Positions 101 to 9,844 of a DNA stretch of 15,799 nucleotides are shown here, in pieces; positions within the stretch are counted from its first letter, which is position 1, and every line of letters starts with the position of its first letter. The notes under the pieces are model-generated. The model was given only the letters and a program-made list of their open reading frames with translations. It made no database searches and was not told the DNA's origin. A program made the position numbers and the translations under genes. The DNA is from Rhizobium sp. Q54 (GTDB lineage Bacteria; Bacteroidota; Bacteroidia; Flavobacteriales; Flavobacteriaceae), in contig CALPLL020000015.1 in assembly GCA_943324395.2 (NCBI GenBank), positions 1-15,799 on the forward strand. The letters are read 5' to 3'.

Positions 101-103
101 TTT

Positions 104-143
104 CATAACCCTGAGGTCGAGAGTTCAAATCTCTCTCTCGCTA
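104..143 (+). tRNA. 3' half of a tRNA (probably tRNA-Met, CAT), displaced fragment
   Basis: The sequence starts inside an anticodon loop (CATAA), continues with the 3' strand of an anticodon stem (CCCTG), a variable region, a perfect 5-bp T arm (GAGAG 119-123, loop TTCAAAT, CTCTC 131-135), a 7-base acceptor 3' strand (TCTCGCT 136-142) and discriminator A143. The matching 5' acceptor strand (AGCGAGA), D arm and 5' anticodon strand are absent from the upstream bases, so this cannot be a working tRNA alone. A tRNA broken at the anticodon loop with its 3' part kept is the usual product of integrase recombination at a tRNA 3' end. The CAT reading depends on the loop alignment, so elongator Met versus Ile2 is not settled. 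Confidence 0.72.
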
Positions 144-147
144 CAAA

Positions 148-179
148 AAAACCCCTAACAAACGTTAGGGGTTTTTTTA
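148..179. terminator. Bidirectional intrinsic terminator
   Basis: A perfect 9-bp stem, ACCCCTAAC (151-159) with GTTAGGGGT (164-172), encloses an AAAC loop. A T run follows on the plus strand (172-178) and an A run precedes it (145-151), which makes a T run on the minus strand. It can end the tRNA transcript from the left and the cas9/guide transcript from the right. Confidence 0.85.
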
Positions 180-214
180 TTCTTTACCAATTCAGGTTCT
201 ATGACTCAAAAAAG

Positions 215-250
215 GAGAATTTTATTTCTAATCTTTAATCAAACTACAAT
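215..250 (-). CRISPR. Single type II CRISPR-like repeat, isolated
   Basis: Read on the minus strand it begins ATTGTAGTTTGATTAAAGAT and ends near position 215, giving a 36-base unit of the size and ATTGTAG/GTTGTAG opening usual for type II-C repeats. It is complementary to the anti-repeat of the tracrRNA at 3767-3798: 5 bp (250-246 with 3794-3798), a 5x5 internal loop, 15 uninterrupted bp (240-226 with 3774-3788), a one-base bulge, then 7 bp (224-218 with 3767-3773). That pairing is the main evidence. No second clean copy is found in the window, so the exact ends, especially the 3' end, are uncertain and the unit may be partly decayed. Confidence 0.8.
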
Positions 251-280
251 CTAATAGCGTTACTACTTAACTAAAATCTT
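215..280 (-). ncRNA. Candidate single guide crRNA (spacer 251-280 plus repeat)
   Basis: In type II systems the crRNA is spacer then repeat, so on this strand the guide would be the bases just 5' of the repeat. A 30-base spacer would occupy 280 down to 251, with the seed end (CGCTATTAG) touching the repeat. The unit sits between the cas9 stop codon (293-295) and the bidirectional terminator at 148-179, so it could come from the 3' end of the cas9 message or from its own start near 280. The upstream spacer boundary is assumed from usual spacer length because no repeat lies on that side. Its target is unknown. Confidence 0.55.
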
Positions 281-285
281 AATTT

Positions 286-312
286 CAAATAACTATAAAT
301 TGAATTTTTCAA
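286..312 (-). promoter_or_regulatory. Weak possible promoter for the guide RNA
   Basis: On the minus strand GTTATTTG (293-286) keeps the TTTG half of the Bacteroidetes TAnnTTTG element, and a TTG lies at 312-310, 16 bases upstream. A start 5-7 bases downstream would fall at about 279-281, where a 30-base spacer would begin. Two of the six defined -7 bases mismatch and the spacing is a little short, so this is only suggestive. Confidence 0.25.
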
Positions 313-3300
313 TTTTTCCAATAACAGAAACTCTAACTTTTATTGGATTAAGATCAATCCATTTTTTAAAACTTTGTATTGAAATTTCTTGGTCTTTATT
401 ATCTAAAGTTGCAGCATTTGCGTGTCGAAAAATAAACTCAAATGAATTTTCTTTTTTGGAAGTTTTTTGAACTCGATACAAATGCTGTGTTATAATTTTA
501 TAATCTAAATTATCCCAATCTATATTTTCATCTTTTAATCCCAATAAAAAAGTGTTATTAATTTGTAATGAACATATTATTTCCAATCCGTCTTCCGGCA
601 ATTTAATATCGTTTTCAAAGCACCGTTTTCTTTCAACAACGGACCAAAAGGAAACAACATCATCTTTTAGACTACCAAATTTATCTCGGTATACCAATGC
701 GTGATGGTTATTTCTTGGATTTACATATTGGTTTACCCCTTTTTTTAATTGTTCTGCTCTTCTAAAACTTTCCTTTATTCTAACTTTCATAATAGGAATA
801 GAAATGCCTTTTTTATTGGGTAAGAACAATTTTGGTTGTTTAACACCAAAATCATCTTCAGAAAAATAGGTGTTTTCAGGAACAATCCCTTTTATAAAAC
901 CTCCTAATTCTATTACTCGCTTTAAAATGATTTTTTTTATGGTCGGATCTACAATTTTGTCAATTTGAGTTTCCGTTTTTAAACTTTCTACTGGTTTTCT
1001 AATGTGAAAAGCTTGAATTCCATTGAGATTTCTTAGTCCGAAAATTGTTTCTTTGTGTAATTGCCCTCTAGCTGAAATTCCTCTAAACCCATCTTTTTGA
1101 TTGGAACCGGATTGAACTGTAATCGTTTTATTTACATTTTTGTGAGATACTACTATCGTTTTTAATGCCAATTCCACGTCGTAAATAAAATTCTTCCAAG
1201 GTAAAGGATAACTGAATTTTGGTGAATTTATATCATATCTGTTCCACTTTGATAACTCTTGGATTTGGTTTACAGAAACATTTGCAACTATCAATGCTTC
1301 AATTGCTTGCTGCAGATAATCATTGCTTGAAAATAAATATAAACCCCATTTATTCTTTAAATTAGTGGTAATTTTACTGTTGGTAATGGTAACCTTACTA
1401 CAACTATTTAATAAATATTCTTTTGTTGATTTACTAATGTATTTTGTATCGTTTAAGTTTTTATTTATAAAATCATCATCAAATTTTTTTTGAATAAAAC
1501 GCTTAAACTTTCTATATCCGTCAGGATTTTGAGAATAATCTGAGAACAAATTTAAAGCCCTATTTTTAACTTCATTCCACTTCTCTTCCCCTTGAGAATT
1601 ATAAAATTCATAGGGGATTTTTTCTCCTTTACTAATTTTTTCGTCAGAAAAACAAAGTGTTTTATTAATAAAACTGTCGTTCAATGATTTACACCAAGCG
1701 TGAATGTATTCAACTTCTATATCGTCACTAAACAATTGATTAATGCTGATGTTATTTCCAGTATAGGGACAGGTTTCTTTGCATTCTTTCCACAATTTAA
1801 ATAGCATCACATTATTATTTGTAGTTTTAAAGCCCTTGCTCTTTAGCTCATCTTTAATTTGATTGGTTTCTTTTTGAAGATTTAATTGTTTTTTCTTAAA
1901 TTCATATCTGCCAGATTTTGACGCTTTTAAATTTGGAGACAATGCTACTTTTATTTCATTTAGATTTCCATATTCATTAGATAATTTGTTTATTAATTTT
2001 CGAATTTCAAATAATACATTACTAAAAACAGGATTTCTTAAATTATTGATTTTTTTATCAGCTGAAGAGCCAAATTCTAACTTTTCAGATTTATCATTTA
2101 TATTTTCAAAAACTGAAATTTGATATAATTTAGTTATCTGCTCTGAATCAAATTGCAACTCTGTTTTTAGGTATTCAACTAAAATGTCATCTAATCCTGA
2201 TTTGAAATTAGAATAATACAATTCCGAGACTTGATCAATAATTATAGCTTTTTTAACCTCATCAAGATTTTCCCAATAATTTGCAAAAGCATTTTTTATA
2301 CCACCCAAAACAACCGCCAATTCATATTGGCATCCCATTTTCAAAAACGGAAAAATGTTGTTCATAGCCTTTCGACAAATGTTAGCATAGCCAGGTTTCA
2401 AATTAAAATTAGATATTTGTTGAGCTTGTATTGGAGTAAATCCCCATTTTTCAATAGCATAATTCTCTAATTTATCTTTATCGCCAAAAAAGTACAATAT
2501 ATGCCAAATATCATCTTGTTCCTTATCCGAAAATTCCAACCATTTTTTACCAAAATACTTGCTACTACTGAGATTAGGAATGGTATTAGCAACACAAATT
2601 TTATCCTGATCTTTTTGATTAAATTTATAAAAAGGATCTAACTTGTCAATCACTTTTCGAATTTCTTTAAAAAAAGGTTTTTCTTTAAAACAAAGAAAAT
2701 GGGCAATTTTATGTCTTTCAGTTTCATTCAATTTAATACCATTGTATTCAACAGAATTTATCCATTTATAAATGCTAAAATTCTCGTAAGAAATTGAACT
2801 CAAATGGGCTTTCTTTTTCTTTTTTTCAAAGGAACAATTGCCTACTAAATGTTTTTTTGATTTTAAAGGTCGTTGATGAAATAGAATCCCATTTTCATTG
2901 AATCCATCATTTTTTCTACCACCAAATTTTTCTTTTAATTCTAATGATAATTCAGGATGGTAGTTTTTTTGGTGTTCCCAAATTTGTTCAAATTCGTCAA
3001 TATACATCTGCCTTGTAGTGTATCTATTTCGAATTCTTTCCAACCCATTTTCAAAGGATACGTTTTGTTTTGGATGAATTTCATATAAATATGACCCTAA
3101 AGTAGTAGATTCAATTTGGGCTCTAGTTTCATTTATTCCAATAGTATTATTTTTAGAATTTCCGTTAAAAATGTGACCATCATCACTAGGAATTATTCGG
3201 CTATTACTTAAATATCCTCTTCGTTGAATTAGATGATAAAAAATCCTCCCAATTGATTCTAATGGTACTTTTTCCGAAAGGGCTTTGTGCCGATTTTCAT

Positions 3301-3640
3301 AGGGATTAATTGCAAACCAAGAAGATAATTCTTGAGATGGAAATTGTTTTGTAGTATTCCAATTGTCGATATCCTTAGAGGTCAAAGGACACATTTTTTG
3401 GTTAACAAGTTCTTTTAATAAGATTTTTTTTCTGAGACGTTTTCTGAAAAACTGTTTTCGTATTCTTCTATTTTGGGTTCTAATTGCATTTCGAGATAAT
3501 TCGGCAGCACCGTCACCTAAATTATTGACACCCACAGGAAATACTCTTGTTCCTAAGCTAAGAATTGAACTGGATTTGGTATCCAGAATAGCCCAACCAA
3601 TTGAGTTGACCCCTAAATATAAACCAAGAATTTTTGTCAT
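293..3640 (-). CDS. cas9: Cas9 homologue, type II-C, predicted nuclease-dead
   Basis: An RNA-guided DNA-binding protein of 1115 residues; from memory, flavobacterial II-C Cas9s are often about 1400 or more. Visible in order: RuvC-I with GLYLGVNSIGWAI (6-18), arginine-rich bridge helix (about 50-78), recognition lobe (about 80-540, including LGRIFYHLIQRRG-type and FHQRPL segments), RuvC-II (561-578), HNH with CPYTG (624-628) and NDSFINKTL (654-662), RuvC-III (773-786), then WED/PAM-interacting region (about 845-1115, with RGQLHKET and NQYVNPRNNHHA). Catalytic positions by alignment from memory: RuvC-I Asp is Tyr8, RuvC-II Glu is Ala566, HNH Asp-His are Glu644-Tyr645, HNH Asn is Lys668, RuvC-III His is Gln778 and Asp is Glu781. 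No stop or frameshift interrupts the frame. A tracrRNA gene is divergent upstream and one repeat lies downstream; cas1 and cas2 are absent. Cas9 identity is near certain; loss of cleavage is a strong prediction, and a regulatory role is inference. Confidence 0.96.
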   Translation of the reverse strand: MTKILGLYLGVNSIGWAILDTKSSSILSLGTRVFPVGVNNLGDGAAELSRNAIRTQNRRIRKQFFRKRLRKKILLKELVNQKMCPLTSKDIDNWNTTKQFPSQELSSWFAINPYENRHKALSEKVPLESIGRIFYHLIQRRGYLSNSRIIPSDDGHIFNGNSKNNTIGINETRAQIESTTLGSYLYEIHPKQNVSFENGLERIRNRYTTRQMYIDEFEQIWEHQKNYHPELSLELKEKFGGRKNDGFNENGILFHQRPLKSKKHLVGNCSFEKKKKKAHLSSISYENFSIYKWINSVEYNGIKLNETERHKIAHFLCFKEKPFFKEIRKVIDKLDPFYKFNQKDQDKICVANTIPNLSSSKYFGKKWLEFSDKEQDDIWHILYFFGDKDKLENYAIEKWGFTPIQAQQISNFNLKPGYANICRKAMNNIFPFLKMGCQYELAVVLGGIKNAFANYWENLDEVKKAIIIDQVSELYYSNFKSGLDDILVEYLKTELQFDSEQITKLYQISVFENINDKSEKLEFGSSADKKINNLRNPVFSNVLFEIRKLINKLSNEYGNLNEIKVALSPNLKASKSGRYEFKKKQLNLQKETNQIKDELKSKGFKTTNNNVMLFKLWKECKETCPYTGNNISINQLFSDDIEVEYIHAWCKSLNDSFINKTLCFSDEKISKGEKIPYEFYNSQGEEKWNEVKNRALNLFSDYSQNPDGYRKFKRFIQKKFDDDFINKNLNDTKYISKSTKEYLLNSCSKVTITNSKITTNLKNKWGLYLFSSNDYLQQAIEALIVANVSVNQIQELSKWNRYDINSPKFSYPLPWKNFIYDVELALKTIVVSHKNVNKTITVQSGSNQKDGFRGISARGQLHKETIFGLRNLNGIQAFHIRKPVESLKTETQIDKIVDPTIKKIILKRVIELGGFIKGIVPENTYFSEDDFGVKQPKLFLPNKKGISIPIMKVRIKESFRRAEQLKKGVNQYVNPRNNHHALVYRDKFGSLKDDVVSFWSVVERKRCFENDIKLPEDGLEIICSLQINNTFLLGLKDENIDWDNLDYKIITQHLYRVQKTSKKENSFEFIFRHANAATLDNKDQEISIQSFKKWIDLNPIKVRVSVIGKIEKFNL

Positions 3641-3728: not shown

Positions 3729-3758
3729 TTGAATTTTAATATAAATAGCTTACATTTA
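3729..3758 (+). promoter_or_regulatory. tracrRNA promoter (Bacteroidetes type)
   Basis: TTG at 3729-3731, 19 bases, then TACATTTA at 3751-3758, which matches TAnnTTTG except for the last base. The predicted start (about 3761-3764) falls exactly where complementarity to the CRISPR repeat begins, which supports both promoter and RNA. Confidence 0.65.
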
Positions 3759-3761
3759 TAG

Positions 3762-3854
3762 GGTGAAATTTTATTCTAATCTTTAATCTTATCACAATAA
3801 GGCTAAATGCCGTAGATGAAAATCTTTAATCCCGCTTCGGTGGGATTTTTTTTT
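3762..3854 (+). ncRNA. tracrRNA for the Cas9 homologue
   Basis: A trans-activating CRISPR RNA pairs with the repeat part of a crRNA and anchors it to Cas9. The anti-repeat (3767-3798) is complementary to the isolated repeat at 215-250 in blocks of 7, 15 and 5 bp with an internal loop between the last two. Next comes ACAATAAGGCTAAATGCC with the nexus hairpin GGC (3801-3803) and GCC (3809-3811), the typical II-C layout. A linker GTAGATGAAAATC leads into a stem of 8 bp, AATCCCGC (3828-3835) and GTGGGATT (3840-3847), with a TTCG loop and a T run to 3854 serving as terminator. It is divergent from cas9. The scaffold is well preserved even though the partner protein has lost its catalytic residues. 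The 5' end is estimated from the promoter. Confidence 0.9.
3828..3854 (+). terminator. tracrRNA terminator hairpin with UUCG loop
   Basis: An 8-bp stem containing one G-T pair, closed by TTCG, followed by nine T. In type II tracrRNAs the terminal hairpin usually also contacts Cas9. Confidence 0.88.
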
Positions 3855-3923
3855 GGTAAGGGTAATATAATTTAAATTAACTAACCCAAGAATAACTTTA
3901 ACATCAACTTAAATAAAATCTTA

Positions 3924-3954
3924 TTGCGAGGGTATTGCTGTTTGATTACCTTTG
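3924..3954 (+). promoter_or_regulatory. Promoter of the nadCAB operon
   Basis: TTG (3924-3926), 20 bases, then TACCTTTG (3947-3954), a perfect TAnnTTTG. The predicted start is about 3959-3961, giving a leader of roughly 85 bases before nadC. I see no clear riboswitch fold in that leader. Confidence 0.75.
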
Positions 3955-4044
3955 CATGGCTGTTGAAAATCATTTTTCCTAAAAAATAAAATTCGTTTAA
4001 ACATCATGAATACTTAACATCATTAATAATTTGAAATATAATTA

Positions 4045-4884
4045 ATGCAAGAAGATATTAAATTATTCATTACTAACGCCTTATTAGAAGATATTGGAAT
4101 GGGCGACATTACCAGTTTAGCTACAATAAATAAAGAGCAAAAAGGGGAGGCTATTTGTTATGTAAAAGAAGATTGCATAATTGCTGGAATTGAATTAGCT
4201 AAATTAATTTGTACTCAAGTGGATCCGTTATTGACAGTTTTATTTGAGGTTGAGGACGGTGAATTTGTTAGTAAAAATACACCTATTGGAAATATTTCTG
4301 GCTCTATACAATCTATATTAAAATTAGAAAGATTGTTGCTAAACTGTATGCAACGAATGAGCGCAATTGCTACTAAAACTAATTACTTTGTAAATTTAAT
4401 TGCTCCTTACAATGTTAAAGTATTAGACACTCGAAAAACAACACCTAATTTTAGAATTTGTGAAAAATGGGCCGTAAAAATTGGTGGCGGCGTAAACCAT
4501 CGTTTTGGATTATACGATCAGGTTTTAATTAAAGACAATCATATTAAAGCTGCTGGAGATATTAAAAATGCTGTTGAATCATGCACAGAATATTTACTTG
4601 AAAATCAATTAAAAATACCTGTTGTTGTTGAAGTTAAAGATTTAGAGGAATTCAATAAAATAAAAAATTATGAAATTGTTGATCGGATTTTGGTTGATAA
4701 TTTCAAACCAATTGATATTATTGAATTAATTAAACACAATTCTACACATAAAACAATTGAAGCTTCAGGCGGAATCAATGCAAGTAATATTGTAGAATAT
4801 GCCAAAACTGGAATCGATTATGTCTCGTTGGGAGATTTAACGCACCATGTCAATTCTATAGATATTTCCCTTAAAATTATATAA
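4045..4884 (+). CDS. nadC: Quinolinate phosphoribosyltransferase (nicotinate-nucleotide pyrophosphorylase)
   Basis: Converts quinolinate and phosphoribosyl pyrophosphate to nicotinate mononucleotide, CO2 and pyrophosphate in cytosolic de novo NAD synthesis. The 279-residue length is normal. Family signatures in order: an N-terminal region with LLEDIGMGDIT (13-23), DTRKTTP (128-134), GGGVNHR (147-153), LIKDNH (161-166), VEVK (195-198), LVDN (216-219) and EASGGI (239-244), together covering the substrate-binding barrel. It is the first gene of a tight operon: its stop is one base before the nadA ATG. A perfect promoter lies about 90 bases upstream. Nothing is missing or odd in the sequence. Confidence 0.97.
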   Translation: MQEDIKLFITNALLEDIGMGDITSLATINKEQKGEAICYVKEDCIIAGIELAKLICTQVDPLLTVLFEVEDGEFVSKNTPIGNISGSIQSILKLERLLLNCMQRMSAIATKTNYFVNLIAPYNVKVLDTRKTTPNFRICEKWAVKIGGGVNHRFGLYDQVLIKDNHIKAAGDIKNAVESCTEYLLENQLKIPVVVEVKDLEEFNKIKNYEIVDRILVDNFKPIDIIELIKHNSTHKTIEASGGINASNIVEYAKTGIDYVSLGDLTHHVNSIDISLKII

Positions 4885-4885
4885 A

Positions 4886-5866
4886 ATGTTATTCGAAAAT
4901 GAAATTGCAAAAGTGGGTTATATAAGCAGATCCGTTCCTGAGGGAATAGACTTAAAGGAGGCCATTTTAAAAATGAAAGTTGAAAAAAATGCGGTAATTC
5001 TGGCACATTATTATGTGAGTGAAGACATACAGTCTATCGCTGATTTTGTGGGAGACAGTTTGGCTTTGGCCCAAGCTTCAAAAAAACAATCTTCAGATAT
5101 TATTGTTTTTTGTGGAGTTCATTTTATGGCTGAAACTGCAAAAATATTAAATCCAAATACTAAAGTACTTTTACCCGATTTAAATGCAGGATGTTCGTTA
5201 GCGGACTCAGCCCCTGAAGCTGAATTTATTGCTTTCAAAAATCAATATCCTGATGCAATAGTAGTAAGTTATATCAATTGCAGTTCTGAAATAAAAGCTC
5301 AAAGTGATTATATCTGTACTTCATCTAATGCAATAGATATTGTAAATTCTATCCCAAAAGACAAACAAATCATTTTTGCACCAGATAAAAACTTAGGAAT
5401 GTTTGTCCAAAAAGTAACTGGTCGGGAATTAATTCTTTGGGACGGTGCTTGTATCGTACACGTCAATATATCTATGGATAAATTAAATGCATTGCAATTG
5501 GCTCACCCCGATGCTGAACTAATTGCTCATCCAGAGTGTCTTCCTGAACTTCTTAACAAAGCCTCATTTATTGGTTCAACCTCCGCTTTACTAAATCATG
5601 TTCAATCTTCTACTTCAGATAAATTTATTGTTGCTACAGAAGCCGGAATATTGTATAAAATGAGACAGTTGGTGCCTCATAAAACTATTATACCAGCTCC
5701 GGCTTTAGAATCGAATTCCTGCGCCTGTTCTGAATGTCCGTATATGAAAATGAACACGCTCGAAAAATTATACAACGCACTGTATTATGAATTACCCGAA
5801 ATTCATGTGAATGAAAAAACTCAAATTGGCGCATTAAAGGCTTTAAATAATATGCTTTCTATATAA
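4886..5866 (+). CDS. nadA: Quinolinate synthase, [4Fe-4S] enzyme
   Basis: Condenses iminoaspartate (from NadB) with dihydroxyacetone phosphate to quinolinate. 326 residues, the usual size. Visible motifs: ILAHYY (38-43), GDSL (56-59), FCGVHFMAETAKIL (75-88), AGCSLAD (101-107), SYINCSSEIKAQSD (128-141), FAPDKNLG (164-171), WDGACIVH (185-192), HPECLPEL (215-222), GSTSAL (230-235), ATEAGILYKM (250-259) and CSECPYMKMN (281-290). The three cluster ligands by family comparison should be Cys103, Cys189 and one cysteine of the 279/281/284 group, most likely Cys284. The start is one base after the nadC stop, so translation is probably coupled. nadB follows after 8 bases. Confidence 0.97.
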   Translation: MLFENEIAKVGYISRSVPEGIDLKEAILKMKVEKNAVILAHYYVSEDIQSIADFVGDSLALAQASKKQSSDIIVFCGVHFMAETAKILNPNTKVLLPDLNAGCSLADSAPEAEFIAFKNQYPDAIVVSYINCSSEIKAQSDYICTSSNAIDIVNSIPKDKQIIFAPDKNLGMFVQKVTGRELILWDGACIVHVNISMDKLNALQLAHPDAELIAHPECLPELLNKASFIGSTSALLNHVQSSTSDKFIVATEAGILYKMRQLVPHKTIIPAPALESNSCACSECPYMKMNTLEKLYNALYYELPEIHVNEKTQIGALKALNNMLSI

Positions 5867-5874
5867 ATATAGTA

Positions 5875-7377
5875 ATGAAGCAATCATACGATATTGTAAT
5901 TGTAGGTTCTGGAATTGGTGGCTTGAGCACGCTTTTGTATTTATCCGAAACTCCAATATTTAAAGAAGGTAAACTCTCCATTTGTATAGTGGTTAAAGGT
6001 GCTTTAAATGAAACCAACACCAATTGGGCTCAAGGCGGAATTGCAGCTGTTAAAGCACTTGACGATAATTTTGAAAAACATATTAATGATACTCTTGTTG
6101 CTGGCGCTTACGCAAATGATAAAGCAATTGTAGAAAAAGTAATCCAATCAGCACCCGATTTAATTGAAGATTTAATTGAATGGGGAACCCAATTTGATAA
6201 AAAAAATAATGGTGAATTTGATCTTGCTAAAGAAGGCGGTCACAGTGATGCGCGAATTTGGCACAAAGAAGACCAAACTGGAAAGGACATTCAATCGTCA
6301 TTAATAAATAAAATCAAAGGCCTAAAAAACATAGACCTATTTGACAATTCCACACTTATCAATGCCGAAAAACTAGAAAATAATACCTTTTCAATTCAAC
6401 TATTTGATAATAAAAATAACTTTTTCAATAATGTAATTTGTAGTAAACTAGTTTTAGCAACTGGAGGAATTGGAGGGTTATTTGAAAAATCAACCAATCA
6501 AGAAAATGCAACAAGTGACGGCGTTTTTATTGCCAATAAATTAGGTGCTACAATTGAAAATTTATCCTTTATTCAGTTTCACCCAACAGGCTTATTTGAA
6601 GAAGGCAGTATTTCATTCTTAATTTCTGAAGCTTTAAGAGGTTCTGGTGCAATATTGAAGAATGAACAAAAAGAAGCTTTTATGTACAAATACGATGATC
6701 GCTTGGATTTAGCTCCAAGAGATGTTGTTTCAAGAGCTATTATTGATGAAATAAAAACACAAAAACTTCCTCACGTTTATTTAGATGCCACTAAAATTGA
6801 TCCATTAATAATAGACAAACATTATCCGCACATTAAAAAAGAATGCTTTTTAAGATTAGGAATCAATATTCAAAATGATTTTATACCAGTTATACCAGTG
6901 CAGCATTATTCATGTGGAGGAATTAAAGTGAATGAATTTGGCGAAACCTCCGTAAGTGGTTTATTTGCAATTGGCGAAGTGGCGTCAACGGGCTTGCATG
7001 GAGCAAATAGACTGGCTTCGAATTCATTGTTGGAAGCCATTGCATTTGCAAAATTCTCAATACCTTCATTAACTGCAAATTTATCAAACGATTTGGTGAC
7101 TTCTGATAATGATAAATTATTAAAGTTATTAAAAGTTGACAAAAATGTAATTCAAAAAATTATTAGTTCCAATGCTGGTATCGTTAAATCTAATGAAGGT
7201 TTGAAGAAAGCATTAGAACAACTTTTAGAAATAAAATCAAAAGCAGTTGAAAGTGATAAATTTAGTACAACCGATTTTGAAGCCAATTGCATTTTAGAAT
7301 CAGCCATACTTTTAATTCAAGATGCTTTAAATCAAAAAGTAAATAGAGGCGTTTATTTTAATATTGATTTAGTTTAA
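5875..7377 (+). CDS. nadB: L-aspartate oxidase
   Basis: Flavoenzyme oxidising L-aspartate to iminoaspartate, the first step of the bacterial de novo NAD route; the product passes to NadA. 500 residues, slightly short for the family. It has the N-terminal dinucleotide-binding GSGIGG (11-16), NTNWAQGGIAA (48-58), HSDARIWHKEDQTG (123-136), ATGGIGGLF (195-203), FIQFHPTG (232-239), SEALRGSGA (251-259), APRDVVSRA (280-288) with the expected active-site arginine, and the FAD-binding C-terminal run QHYSCGG (343-349) and TGLHGANRLASNSLLEA (372-388). The closing helical region is present. It ends the operon; the neighbour is convergent, and I see no strong terminator in the 26-base gap. Confidence 0.97.
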   Translation: MKQSYDIVIVGSGIGGLSTLLYLSETPIFKEGKLSICIVVKGALNETNTNWAQGGIAAVKALDDNFEKHINDTLVAGAYANDKAIVEKVIQSAPDLIEDLIEWGTQFDKKNNGEFDLAKEGGHSDARIWHKEDQTGKDIQSSLINKIKGLKNIDLFDNSTLINAEKLENNTFSIQLFDNKNNFFNNVICSKLVLATGGIGGLFEKSTNQENATSDGVFIANKLGATIENLSFIQFHPTGLFEEGSISFLISEALRGSGAILKNEQKEAFMYKYDDRLDLAPRDVVSRAIIDEIKTQKLPHVYLDATKIDPLIIDKHYPHIKKECFLRLGINIQNDFIPVIPVQHYSCGGIKVNEFGETSVSGLFAIGEVASTGLHGANRLASNSLLEAIAFAKFSIPSLTANLSNDLVTSDNDKLLKLLKVDKNVIQKIISSNAGIVKSNEGLKKALEQLLEIKSKAVESDKFSTTDFEANCILESAILLIQDALNQKVNRGVYFNIDLV

Positions 7378-7403
7378 ACAATTAAAAGCTACTAAATTTA
7401 TAT

Positions 7404-8453
7404 TTACAACTTCATTTTCTTTTGACCTTTGTCAACGCCTTTTACGAATTTAATCAATCCGCCCATGTACGTTTCTTGATCGTCATACATCGACATGTGA
7501 CTTCCATTTGGACAATATAAATAACTTCCATTTTGGAATTGTGTCGACATCCATTCCATGTGTTTAGGATCCATCGTGTCATTTTTAGCGCCTACAACAA
7601 GCGTTGGAGTTGAAATTTTCTTTAAATCTTGTGAACGATCCCATTTTTCTAATTTCCCAGAAAGTCCAAATTCACTTGGCCCTTGCATGGTTACATAAAG
7701 CGATTGGTTCATTTTAGAAAACGATCTGTTTACTGGCTCTGGCCAATTTTGAAGCGGGATTCTACAAATGTGTTCTGCATAAAAATTAGGCATTAGCAAT
7801 TCCATATACCTAGGATTCGAAAAATCTTTTTTAGCTTCAATTTCACGAATTTCTTTCAATACTTCCGGCTTGAATTGTTTAGAAAGAACGTCTTCAGCAT
7901 ATTTCCCATAATCGGGAGCGCTTGACATCATGTTTGAAATGATTAAACCTTTCAAGTTATTTTGATATTTCATAGCATAATCCATTGCTAAAATTCCTCC
8001 CCAAGAATGTCCAAGTAAATAGAAATTGTCTTTATTTAATCCTAATGCAATTCGAACTTGCTCCACTTCCTCTACAAAGCGAGGTAAATCCCACATAGCA
8101 ACATCATTTGGATTATCAGAATTTCCACAACCCAATTGATCATAATAAATGAACTCAATTCCCTCTTTTGGAAGGAAACTCTCAAAACACTCAAAATATT
8201 CGTGGGTTGCTCCAGGCCCACCATTTAATAGCAAAACTTTAATCTTTGGGTTGTTACCAATTTTCTTTGTCCAAACTTTAAAATTCCCTTTTGGAGTTGA
8301 AATGGTAACTACTTTTATTCCACCAGTTTTTATTCCAGTTTCAGTATCCGATAGATAACTCGAAGGAGTTTCAGATCCAGTTTTTTGATTACAAGAAAAC
8401 AATAAACCGATTATGGCAATAAAAAATATACTTTTTAAGAATGCGTTTTTCAT
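7404..8453 (-). CDS. Alpha/beta-hydrolase lipoprotein, proline iminopeptidase-like (S33)
   Basis: Predicted exported lipoprotein of 349 residues. The N-terminus has a short basic end, a hydrophobic stretch (about 9-19) and a lipobox ending LLFSC with Cys21 as the lipidated residue. The hydrolase part shows NGGPG (77-81), matching the HGGPG oxyanion motif of prolyl aminopeptidases, YYDQLGCGNSD (103-113), the nucleophile elbow GHSWGG (148-153, Ser150), a probable acid at Asp292 in GAKNDTMDP, and His319 in NGSHM. A cap region lies between about 180 and 270. The likely activity is release of N-terminal proline or a related hydrolysis at the cell envelope; substrate unknown. It follows hisS on the same strand with 14 bases between, so the two may be cotranscribed. 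Confidence 0.85.
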   Translation of the reverse strand: MKNAFLKSIFFIAIIGLLFSCNQKTGSETPSSYLSDTETGIKTGGIKVVTISTPKGNFKVWTKKIGNNPKIKVLLLNGGPGATHEYFECFESFLPKEGIEFIYYDQLGCGNSDNPNDVAMWDLPRFVEEVEQVRIALGLNKDNFYLLGHSWGGILAMDYAMKYQNNLKGLIISNMMSSAPDYGKYAEDVLSKQFKPEVLKEIREIEAKKDFSNPRYMELLMPNFYAEHICRIPLQNWPEPVNRSFSKMNQSLYVTMQGPSEFGLSGKLEKWDRSQDLKKISTPTLVVGAKNDTMDPKHMEWMSTQFQNGSYLYCPNGSHMSMYDDQETYMGGLIKFVKGVDKGQKKMKL

Positions 8454-8467
8454 AACTATTGATTTAA

Positions 8468-9844
8468 TTAATTATTTATAAGTGTGTTTTTTAATTCTTC
8501 AAAATTTAATGTTATTTGTTCTCCAGAAACCAAGTTTTTTAAGGCAAATTTATCCTCTTTCATTTCAGTTTCTCCAACAATAATTGCGAATTTAATTGCT
8601 CGTTTGTCGGCGTGCATGAATTGTTTTCCCACTTTAACTGCATCAGGATATAATTCAACTTTTATTCCAAAATTGCGTAATTTTTTTATTGCTTTCATAG
8701 AATAAAAGGCCTCTTTTTCACCATAATTGATAAACAACGCTTTCGAAGTTGAACTTACCGTTTCAGGAAATAAATTCAATTCTTCAATTACCAAATAAAT
8801 ACGGTCCAAGCCAAATGATATTCCCACCCCACTCATGTCTTTCAGTCCGAAAATCCCAGTCAAATTATCGTATCTACCACCACCACCAATGGATCCCATT
8901 GAAATTTCTTTTGGTGGAGCAACTTCAAATATTGCCCCTGTGTAATAATTTAATCCACGAGCAAGAGTTACATCTAAGTCTAAATTGGATTTGGATAAAC
9001 CCAATTCTGAAACCGCATCGCAAATAAATTTTACTTCTTCAATTCCTTTCATTCCTTCAGATGAAGAATGTAAAAGAGTTGCTAATTTTTCAATTTTATC
9101 AGAAATCGATCCCGTAAAATTAAATAACGGTTGTACTTTTTGAATTGCAGCTTCAGAAATTCCTTTTTCAAGCATTTCTGTTTTTACGCCGTCCTCCCCT
9201 ATTTTATCTAGTTTGTCTAAAGCAACTGTAAAATCTATTAACTTATCTGAAGCGCCAATAACCTCAGCAATTCCAGATAATATTTTTCTATTATTGATTT
9301 TGATTGTAACGCCATTCAAACCCAAATCGGTGAAAACAGCATCATACAATTGAATTAATTCCACTTCTTGCCATAACGATTTTGAACCTACCACATCGGC
9401 ATCGCATTGATAAAACTCTCTAAAACGGCCTTTTTGTGGACGATCAGCTCGCCAAACGGGTTGGATTTGGTATCTTTTAAATGGAAATTCAATATCATTT
9501 TGGTGCTGAACTACATATCTCGCAAAAGGTACGGTTAAATCGTAACGAAGTGCTTTTTCAGAAATACTTGAAGTCAACTTATTACTTTCTTTATTTACAA
9601 GTGCGCTTTCATTGGCTTTAGCCAAATAATCTCCTGAATTTAATATTTTAAATATCAATCGGTCTCCTTCTTCACCATATTTCCCCATTAAAGTTTCAGA
9701 ATTTTCAAAAGATGGCGTTTCAATAGGTTGAAATCCAAATTTTTCAAAATTACTTTTGATAATAGAAATAATATATTGACGTTTTGCAACTTCACTTGGT
9801 GAAAAGTCGCGCGTACCTTTAGGAATACTCGGTTTTTGAGCCAT
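8468..9844 (-). CDS. hisS: Histidyl-tRNA synthetase
   Basis: Class II synthetase that charges tRNA-His in the cytosol. 458 residues, normal length. Signatures: KGTRDFSP (9-16) at the N-terminus, motif 1 region (about 36-60), [14 protein letters not shown] (98-111), motif 2 with [19 protein letters not shown] (128-146), histidine-specific ARGLNYYTG (295-303), GGGGRYDNL (320-328) and motif 3 GISFGLDR (341-348). The anticodon-binding domain fills about 365-455. It reads on the minus strand, ahead of the hydrolase lipoprotein. A good -7 element lies upstream. All catalytic motifs are intact. Confidence 0.97.

Follow-up and report, generated by a model that had tools for sequence, protein, structure and literature searches.

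We report here a type II-C Cas9 that lacks its canonical nuclease residues and that, with a probability we put at roughly 60%, would act as a native CRISPR-interference repressor of SusC-type receptors through a lone guide (CRISPR, clustered regularly interspaced short palindromic repeats). Its gene lies on a stretch of 15,799 nucleotides, called the window throughout, which comprises positions 1 to 15,799 of contig CALPLL020000015.1 (C15) in the flavobacterial assembly GCA_943324395.2 (1.80 Mb, 237 contigs, 65% complete). Selection for binding without cutting, which a preliminary description of the locus had suggested, is the best reading of these data and has gained support in the present analysis. 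We favor it because a trans-activating CRISPR RNA (tracrRNA) is preserved here and rotten in a relative without cas9, because the reading frame is still open although the protein has changed more than neutral decay would permit, because RuvC-II/III has a higher density of altered conserved sites, and because the single predicted guide has host targets flanked by a protospacer adjacent motif (PAM). Neither the flanking tracrRNA nor the single repeat with its guide figures in the preliminary description.

A type II-C Cas9 without its nuclease residues

293..3640, minus strand: nuclease-dead type II-C Cas9 of 1115 amino acids (open reading frame, profiles, alignment of 120 homologues, loci of 29 other genomes)

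The cas9 frame begins with ATG and remains open for 1115 codons with zero stops. The protein matches the PADLOC Cas9 profile (E=4.4e-71) and, above cut-off, the Pfam families HNH_4 and RuvC_III. Its top PDB matches are Cas9 chains that include, by their titles, ThermoCas9, GeoCas9 and Nme1Cas9, which we take to be II-C enzymes, and several of its named close homologues come from Flavobacterium. Membership of type II-C is indicated both by profile and by full-length alignment with II-C homologues, and the intact II-C frame of the preliminary description is thereby borne out.

A homologue search scored 7989 candidates and returned 2371 matches, the best 120 of which were aligned. At eight catalytic-motif positions where the homologues carry D, E, H, P, N, H, H and D, the window protein carries Y8, A566, Y645, A648, K668, Q777, Q778 and E781. 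Six of these replacements are canonical (D8Y, E566A, H645Y, N668K, H778Q and D781E) and had been named beforehand, which the alignment confirms; P648A and H777Q come in addition. The broader claim that every canonical catalytic position is substituted holds for these six, but the motif residues E644 and D774 are retained. (The SpCas9 residue numbers used for comparison are those of the preliminary description and do not come from an alignment made here.) All eight residues are intact in 118 of the 119 other proteins among the best 120 of 2371. Likewise, the same positions are intact in 24/24 full-length Cas9 loci of the genus and in the covered parts of five partial ones, the loci having been read in 30 of 32 genomes that gave a match, own genome included. 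A displacement of the catalytic residues is ruled out by the ungapped context of the motifs in the alignment.

By established Cas9 biochemistry, the equivalents of D8 and E566 are needed for RuvC activity and those of H645 and N668 for HNH activity. Although E781 is a mild change, a functional RuvC metal site is not plausible in the window protein because D8 and E566 are gone, and an HNH site is not plausible because H645 and N668 are gone. With six canonical positions replaced, the protein does not have the residues of an active type II-C nuclease.

The one exception among the 119 other proteins, P0067, has N in place of the HNH histidine (645 in window numbering) and an intact RuvC domain, and is a possible natural nickase.

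A tracrRNA that has been kept

3729..3758, plus strand: putative tracrRNA promoter, TTG, 19 nt, TACATTTA (from sequence)
3761..3853, plus strand, ends approximate: tracrRNA gene, divergent from cas9 (conservation, terminator scan, fold)
about 3764-3797, plus strand: anti-repeat, as in the relatives' loci
3799-3812, plus strand: nexus, as in the relatives' loci
3828-3847, plus strand: terminator, as in the relatives' loci

As in type II-C loci, a tracrRNA complementary to the repeat is encoded next to cas9. It keeps 73 of the 80 positions that are common to 90% or more of 26 loci, and three of the seven changed positions are at its 5' edge. These 26 were drawn from the 27 loci L002-L028, among which L011 is without a full tracrRNA and L026-L028 carry a partial cas9. 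The anti-repeat core of 25 nt is identical to that of the relatives. At the base of the terminator a G-C pair has become A-U with pairing kept, the sole pair of the tracrRNA altered on both sides; the C-to-U side of this change is also found in the relative G143. The fold has a z-score of -2.8, and 1/200 shuffled sequences folded equally well. Promoters of Bacteroidetes carry the -7 motif TAnnTTTG, from which the putative promoter element TACATTTA deviates by one mismatch, and several live loci read TACATTTG or TATATTTG at the corresponding place.

The comparison with G143, the nearest of eight relatives compared (NadC 90% identical), is informative. G143 shares the chromosomal neighbourhood of the locus (window 3749-7383 and 7390-8611 align) and has no cas9, given that it is not among the 58 genomes with a Cas9 match and that none was seen on inspection of its open reading frames. 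A tracrRNA relic with a broken nexus and terminator is found in its locus L093 at about 5005-5112, minus strand. In this relic 27/80 conserved positions are changed and 53/80 kept. Between the window and G143, 22/84 tracrRNA positions differ, and 63/177 in the adjoining flank. By eye, no relic is present in the aligned intergenic region of the relatives G137 and G086. On these comparisons, the tracrRNA of the window has been maintained while that of G143 decayed, and because of this contrast we regard its retention as the most telling sign that the dead Cas9 is still working together with an RNA.

A lone repeat and its predicted guide

214..250, minus strand: lone CRISPR repeat, 42 nt past the cas9 stop
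251..274, minus strand: predicted guide, directly upstream of the lone repeat (type II geometry)
251-262, minus strand: guide seed TAACGCTATTAG, 12 nt (seed and PAM matches in two SusC genes)

The first 25 nt of the lone repeat agree with the canonical repeat at 23/25 positions, and its 3' third is replaced. Apart from the anti-repeat, no other repeat copy with up to three mismatches exists in the 65%-complete, 1.80-Mb assembly. No Cas1 was found in this assembly and no cas1/cas2 in the window, Cas2 not having been searched genome-wide. The repeat-spacer array and cas1/cas2 of a type II-C locus are thus missing as far as this incomplete genome reaches, and one repeat stands in their place. The predicted guide was placed at 251-274 because a type II spacer lies 5' of its repeat. 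A second seed site was not found in the window at up to two mismatches.

Repeats follow cas9 in 20 of the relatives' 27 loci (L002-L028); five of the others are without a 3' flank, and L021 and L025 show no repeats in 1500 and 732 nt, respectively. Of the 20, 19 have at least four repeat cores in reach and L009 has one. In 17/20 loci the flank ahead of the first repeat contains an inverted repeat (AAACCACAA...) able to pair back on the first repeat, as computed for L002 and L006; this element is lost in the window. The lone repeat matches the first repeats of live loci in place and order, its rank in the old array being deduced from one repeat. In II-C systems an extra first repeat, the extraneous crRNA (ecrRNA) that arises from it and means of suppressing this ecrRNA are described in passages of PMC12080349 (crRNA, CRISPR RNA). 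We infer that such an extraneous crRNA became the only guide in the window.

Several further observations were made on this region. L009, in genome G046, combines an intact Cas9 with a single repeat core within 1.5 kb downstream and may represent a second mini-locus that has a lone guide. In L003, L007, L009, L010 and L012, a small frame, or a stretch like one, that resembles a ParD-type antitoxin by eye lies between cas9 and the array, which begins about 660-960 nt from cas9. An element AGTTCTTTGACATAA, which to our mind resembles an rRNA-type boxA antitermination site, is common to L002, L004, L005 and L006 in the flank before the array, and by eye a degenerate form of it may stand at window positions ~279-291, minus strand. 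Pairing of the altered repeat tail with the tracrRNA is not significant, since 360/5000 random tails paired equally well, and the change of tail is not counted as evidence.

Seed matches and PAM at SusC genes

In the assembly, the exact seed TAACGCTATTAG occurs at its own locus, at C40:2785-2796 and at C101:282-293, and nowhere else. Both of the latter sites lie in the signal-peptide codons (MRSKFKWIFTLLIAL...) of SusC-type TonB receptors. The C40 receptor scores over the cut-off of TIGR04056, and the C101 receptor, truncated at the contig end, below it. C40 holds a full SusC gene (1069 aa) followed by SusD (540 aa) at C40:2752-7596, and the C101 target runs off its contig. After the seed, the targets read TAGCG or GAGCG and then TAAAA at +6, which corresponds to NNNNNTAAAA. 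At 12 sites with one seed mismatch, TAAA was found at the PAM place in none. Under a second-order model, with 126 kb of the genome's sequence as training data, 0.001 sites with seed and PAM are expected by chance for TAAAA, and 0.003 for TAAA.

Within the SusC gene, the predicted guide would base-pair at nt 34-45 of the coding (non-template) strand. In laboratory CRISPR interference, catalytically dead Cas9 (dCas9) placed on the non-template strand is in the orientation that blocks elongation. A match of 12 nt with NNNNNTAAAA, the Flavobacterium columnare PAM, at the start of a chromosomal gene is also what would be expected of a guide of the small CRISPR-Cas-associated RNA (scaRNA) type, that is, a seed match of about 11 bp plus PAM at such a place. 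For the II-C system of F. columnare, NNNNNTAAAA has been given as putative PAM (PMC5524643), and passages of PMC8092290 place NNNNNTAAA at about 63% of its phage-targeting spacers and describe a plasmid-interference test into which NNNNNTAAA was built. The few self-targeting spacers covered in those passages almost always lack NNNNNTAAA (PMC8092290). Here the self-target keeps its PAM, as expected for a Cas9 unable to cut.

Among 198 other genomes of the genus, seed plus PAM was present in three (G086, G137 and G143), always at the same SusC start. NadC of these three is 82-90% identical to that of the window, compared with 48-49% in five other relatives compared.

Constraint on a divergent sequence

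The window protein is highly divergent. In the alignment it is changed at 145/597 positions that are at least 95% conserved, compared with at most 22 in any other row, and at 89/440 sites that are at least 99% conserved. It has the longest terminal branch of the tree (0.64 substitutions per site, the next 0.15, median 0.036) and is nested in a clade of live proteins (42 members, support 0.83, the root being set by members of the set and not from outside). No full-length protein with an identity to it between 61% and 100% is among the matches listed (best 120 of 2371), and no further copy exists among 398 genomes of the genus. Its own 90% cluster has nine member sequences, and genome G243 carries an N-terminal fragment of 208 residues with 65% identity in which D8 is present. 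A protein-pattern scan of genome contigs found no relative of the window Cas9. A second scan of these contigs looked for Cas9 N-termini in which another residue stands at the RuvC-I Asp; its degenerate pattern, limited to the N-S-x-G-W-A kind without G-initial codons, was run without a positive control and with the own genome excluded, and gave two matches, neither in a frame that is Cas9-like by eye.

This divergence does not have the character of free decay. When neutral change was simulated (60 runs each, without indels, on the assumption that the changes postdate nuclease loss), means of 4.7, 10 and 20 stops accumulated at 5, 10 and 20% residue change, with minima of 1, 2 and 13. Differences between the window and the live gene of L013 amount to 0.31, 0.20 and 0.50 at codon positions 1, 2 and 3, and this bias indicates that constraint at the protein level lasted. 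With author-set domain borders, conserved-site changes are denser in RuvC-II/III than elsewhere (44/122 vs 101/475; Fisher p=0.0013, for a grouping picked post hoc). Residues 201-250 (1/26) and 1001-1115 (2/25) are nearly unchanged at conserved sites. The locus thus shows neither stops or frameshifts nor a decaying RNA partner, and a pseudogene or frameshifted Cas9 is rejected by the open frame, the neutral simulation and the preserved tracrRNA. Residues 451-550 form a hot stretch outside the catalytic motifs, with 20/43 conserved sites changed, for which we have no explanation.

Alternative readings

The locus might instead be a decaying remnant that has lost array and nuclease function and whose frame is open only through recent inactivation. 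The missing array, the absence of cas1/cas2 from the window and of Cas1 from the 65%-complete assembly, the long branch of the protein and the rotten tracrRNA of G143, which has no cas9, would all suit such a history. We nevertheless hold it to be unlikely, given that no stop has arisen in 1115 codons despite six catalytic changes and changes at 89/440 nearly invariant sites, that the codon-position bias against L013 persists, that tracrRNA and anti-repeat were preserved while the copy in G143 decayed, and that the 90% cluster holds nine member sequences. A slightly better, though still poor, chance is given to an RNA-guided binder that uses another guide, either from an array that lies outside the assembled sequence, in the service of a binding-only defence, or through autoregulation by the tracrRNA; the SusC match would then be coincidental. 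The genome is indeed only 65% complete, the window has a single repeat, and binding-only Class 2 effectors exist. Autoregulation by tracr-L is likewise on record (PMC11417352). This explanation has to contend with the lack of any repeat at up to three mismatches in 1.8 Mb other than the anti-repeat, with a PAM at both exact seed sites that chance would produce with a frequency of about 0.001, and with the lack of a second seed site at up to two mismatches in the window. Finally, a guide-free decoy or accessory protein, for example one that sequesters tracrRNA or anti-CRISPRs for another effector, would need nothing beyond the preserved tracrRNA; with a single Cas9 match in the assembly, and with no account of why a repeat has been preserved next to a guide whose targets carry a PAM, it appears very improbable.

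Repression of SusC-type receptors through the lone guide, which we prefer to these alternatives, also has a number of points that weigh against it. The match is limited to the seed, with 15/20 and 16/24 nt agreeing at both sites, and no promoter for the guide was identified. Pairing of the lone repeat with the tracrRNA is slightly worse than that of the canonical repeat (-26.9 vs -27.7 kcal/mol). Conserved-site changes are not enriched in RuvC-I (5/30) or HNH (15/61), and the wedge and PAM-interacting (WED/PI) region differs at 26/121 conserved positions. The PAM is borrowed from a relative, F. columnare, and its independent derivation is not at hand, since the array stretches gave no phage matches in the three live loci concerned (L002, L006 and L010). 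G086, G137 and G143, which share the SusC site, have no Cas9 match; on this evidence, the site does not owe its existence to Cas9 and is an inherited part of the receptor gene that was available for targeting. The structure prediction envisaged in the preliminary description yielded a model, but one too weak to use (predicted local distance difference test, pLDDT, 67; predicted template-modelling score, pTM, 0.36; Foldseek TM-scores up to 0.29 among the best 50 matches), and it adds nothing about RNA or DNA binding. The protein is known from a single lineage, represented by a 65%-complete genome.

Chromosomal neighbourhood

145..178, no strand assigned: symmetric terminator-like hairpin (terminator scan, listed on the plus strand; use on the minus strand deduced from symmetry)

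Named by eye from their translations, the genes of the window include nadC, nadA, nadB, hisS, prmC, ribD and the start of dnaA and are ordinary chromosomal genes. On the minus strand between nadC and the hairpin, cas9 is the sole CRISPR gene. The hairpin could be the end of a transcript that comprises cas9 and the guide. A scan with Rfam at gathering thresholds and ARAGORN gave no match in the window. Misassembly is unlikely, as both flanks of cas9 (window 102-177 and 3749-8611) keep the same order in G143, to which positions 102-177 are 100% identical.

Two further features of the flanks may be recorded. A tRNA-like 3' half (TTCATAACC...CTCGCTAC), not called as a tRNA, occupies window positions 102-144 and is identical in G143 and G137; the window carries other DNA to the left of it, a situation like that at integration hot spots. 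Near nadC, three close relatives carry a gene for a protein of 147 amino acids (L093 6699-7142, L094 5102-5545 and L095 1926-2369), for which the L093 copy gave no Pfam family and which is absent around nadC of the window, where cas9 sits.

Discussion

The observations can be joined into a possible mechanism. The cas9-proximal first repeat would have been left without its hairpin and without the other repeats of the array, and the extraneous guide upstream of it would have become the sole guide. This guide may be part of the cas9 transcript, at its 3' end, and pair with the tracrRNA, whereupon RNase III would cut the guide RNA out. The resulting ribonucleoprotein would form an R-loop of 12 bp at nt 34-45 of the SusC gene, with the guide on the non-template strand, and halt RNA polymerase without cutting the DNA. 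One guide could serve two receptor genes because both share the signal-peptide sequence that matches the seed. We consider the odds slightly better than even that an immune nuclease was in this way turned into a dedicated SusC/SusD repressor with a once-suppressed extraneous crRNA as its guide, a natural form of dCas9 and CRISPR interference.

To our knowledge, no RNA-guided, nuclease-dead regulator of Cas9 descent has been described before. A native Cas9 that lacks its nuclease residues and has kept its RNAs was not found in the open-licence PMC literature, preprints excluded. Known cases include TnpB-derived RNA-guided repressors as well as active Cas9 proteins that moonlight as repressors. 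If our interpretation is true, the dCas9 and CRISPR interference of the laboratory have a natural counterpart, and how immune nucleases become regulators is a directly testable question because live relatives, a dead descendant, a relative with a tracrRNA relic and a predicted target are all available. SusC-type receptors are nutrient gates and, in Bacteroidota, entry points for phages; their silencing, if it occurs, could therefore serve feeding or defence.

Among the closest known systems are the II-C loci of the genus (L002-L028), with 51-65% protein identity over the matched parts, the same tracrRNA and anti-repeat and, in 20/27, a first repeat downstream of cas9. They differ in that the 24 full-length ones retain all catalytic residues. 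A comparable arrangement is known from the dCas12f-sigma factor systems of Bacteroidota, in which a nuclease-dead CRISPR effector is a regulator with SusCD targets. These systems are built on Cas12f and activate through a sigma factor, whereas no sigma factor was recognised by eye among the window's open reading frames.

The TnpB-derived TldR repressors are not known to have an HNH domain or a tracrRNA. The preliminary description had likened the locus to them, and the logic of this comparison fits: nuclease residues are lost in an intact frame beside a guide to a host gene, a guide-target link drawn from sequence comparison. The ancestry does not fit, since the window protein, with both nuclease domains altered, is nested among Cas9 proteins and not of TnpB descent. 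TldRs have an inactivated nuclease domain, keep guide and DNA binding, use a short guide and target a surface protein, flagellin, according to passages of PMC13418256.

In the ecrRNA systems, as far as sections of PMC12080349 describe them, the first repeat adjoins the oldest spacer and the upstream flank would serve as guide, as proposed here. By contrast, the ecrRNA is suppressed in most of those systems by a hairpin, a terminator or a repeat mutation (PMC12080349), whereas in the window the flanking inverted repeat is gone and the predicted guide is the sole one.

A functional parallel to a repressor of this kind is the type II-B Cas9 of Francisella novicida (FnCas9) with its scaRNA. There, a native Cas9 with tracrRNA and a noncanonical guide represses a chromosomal lipoprotein gene through complementarity of 11 bp (part of PMC12231574). 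In the Streptococcus pyogenes system, repression of Pcas relied on a crRNA matching over 11 nt, with low reporter levels (part of PMC11417352), and with TldRs, guides of as little as 6 nt lower motility (part of PMC13418256). A seed of 12 nt therefore falls in the range known for such guides. FnCas9 is an active nuclease that represses from the 5'UTR; the window protein is a II-C Cas9 whose catalytic residues are gone, with no array left and a predicted target within the first codons of the gene.

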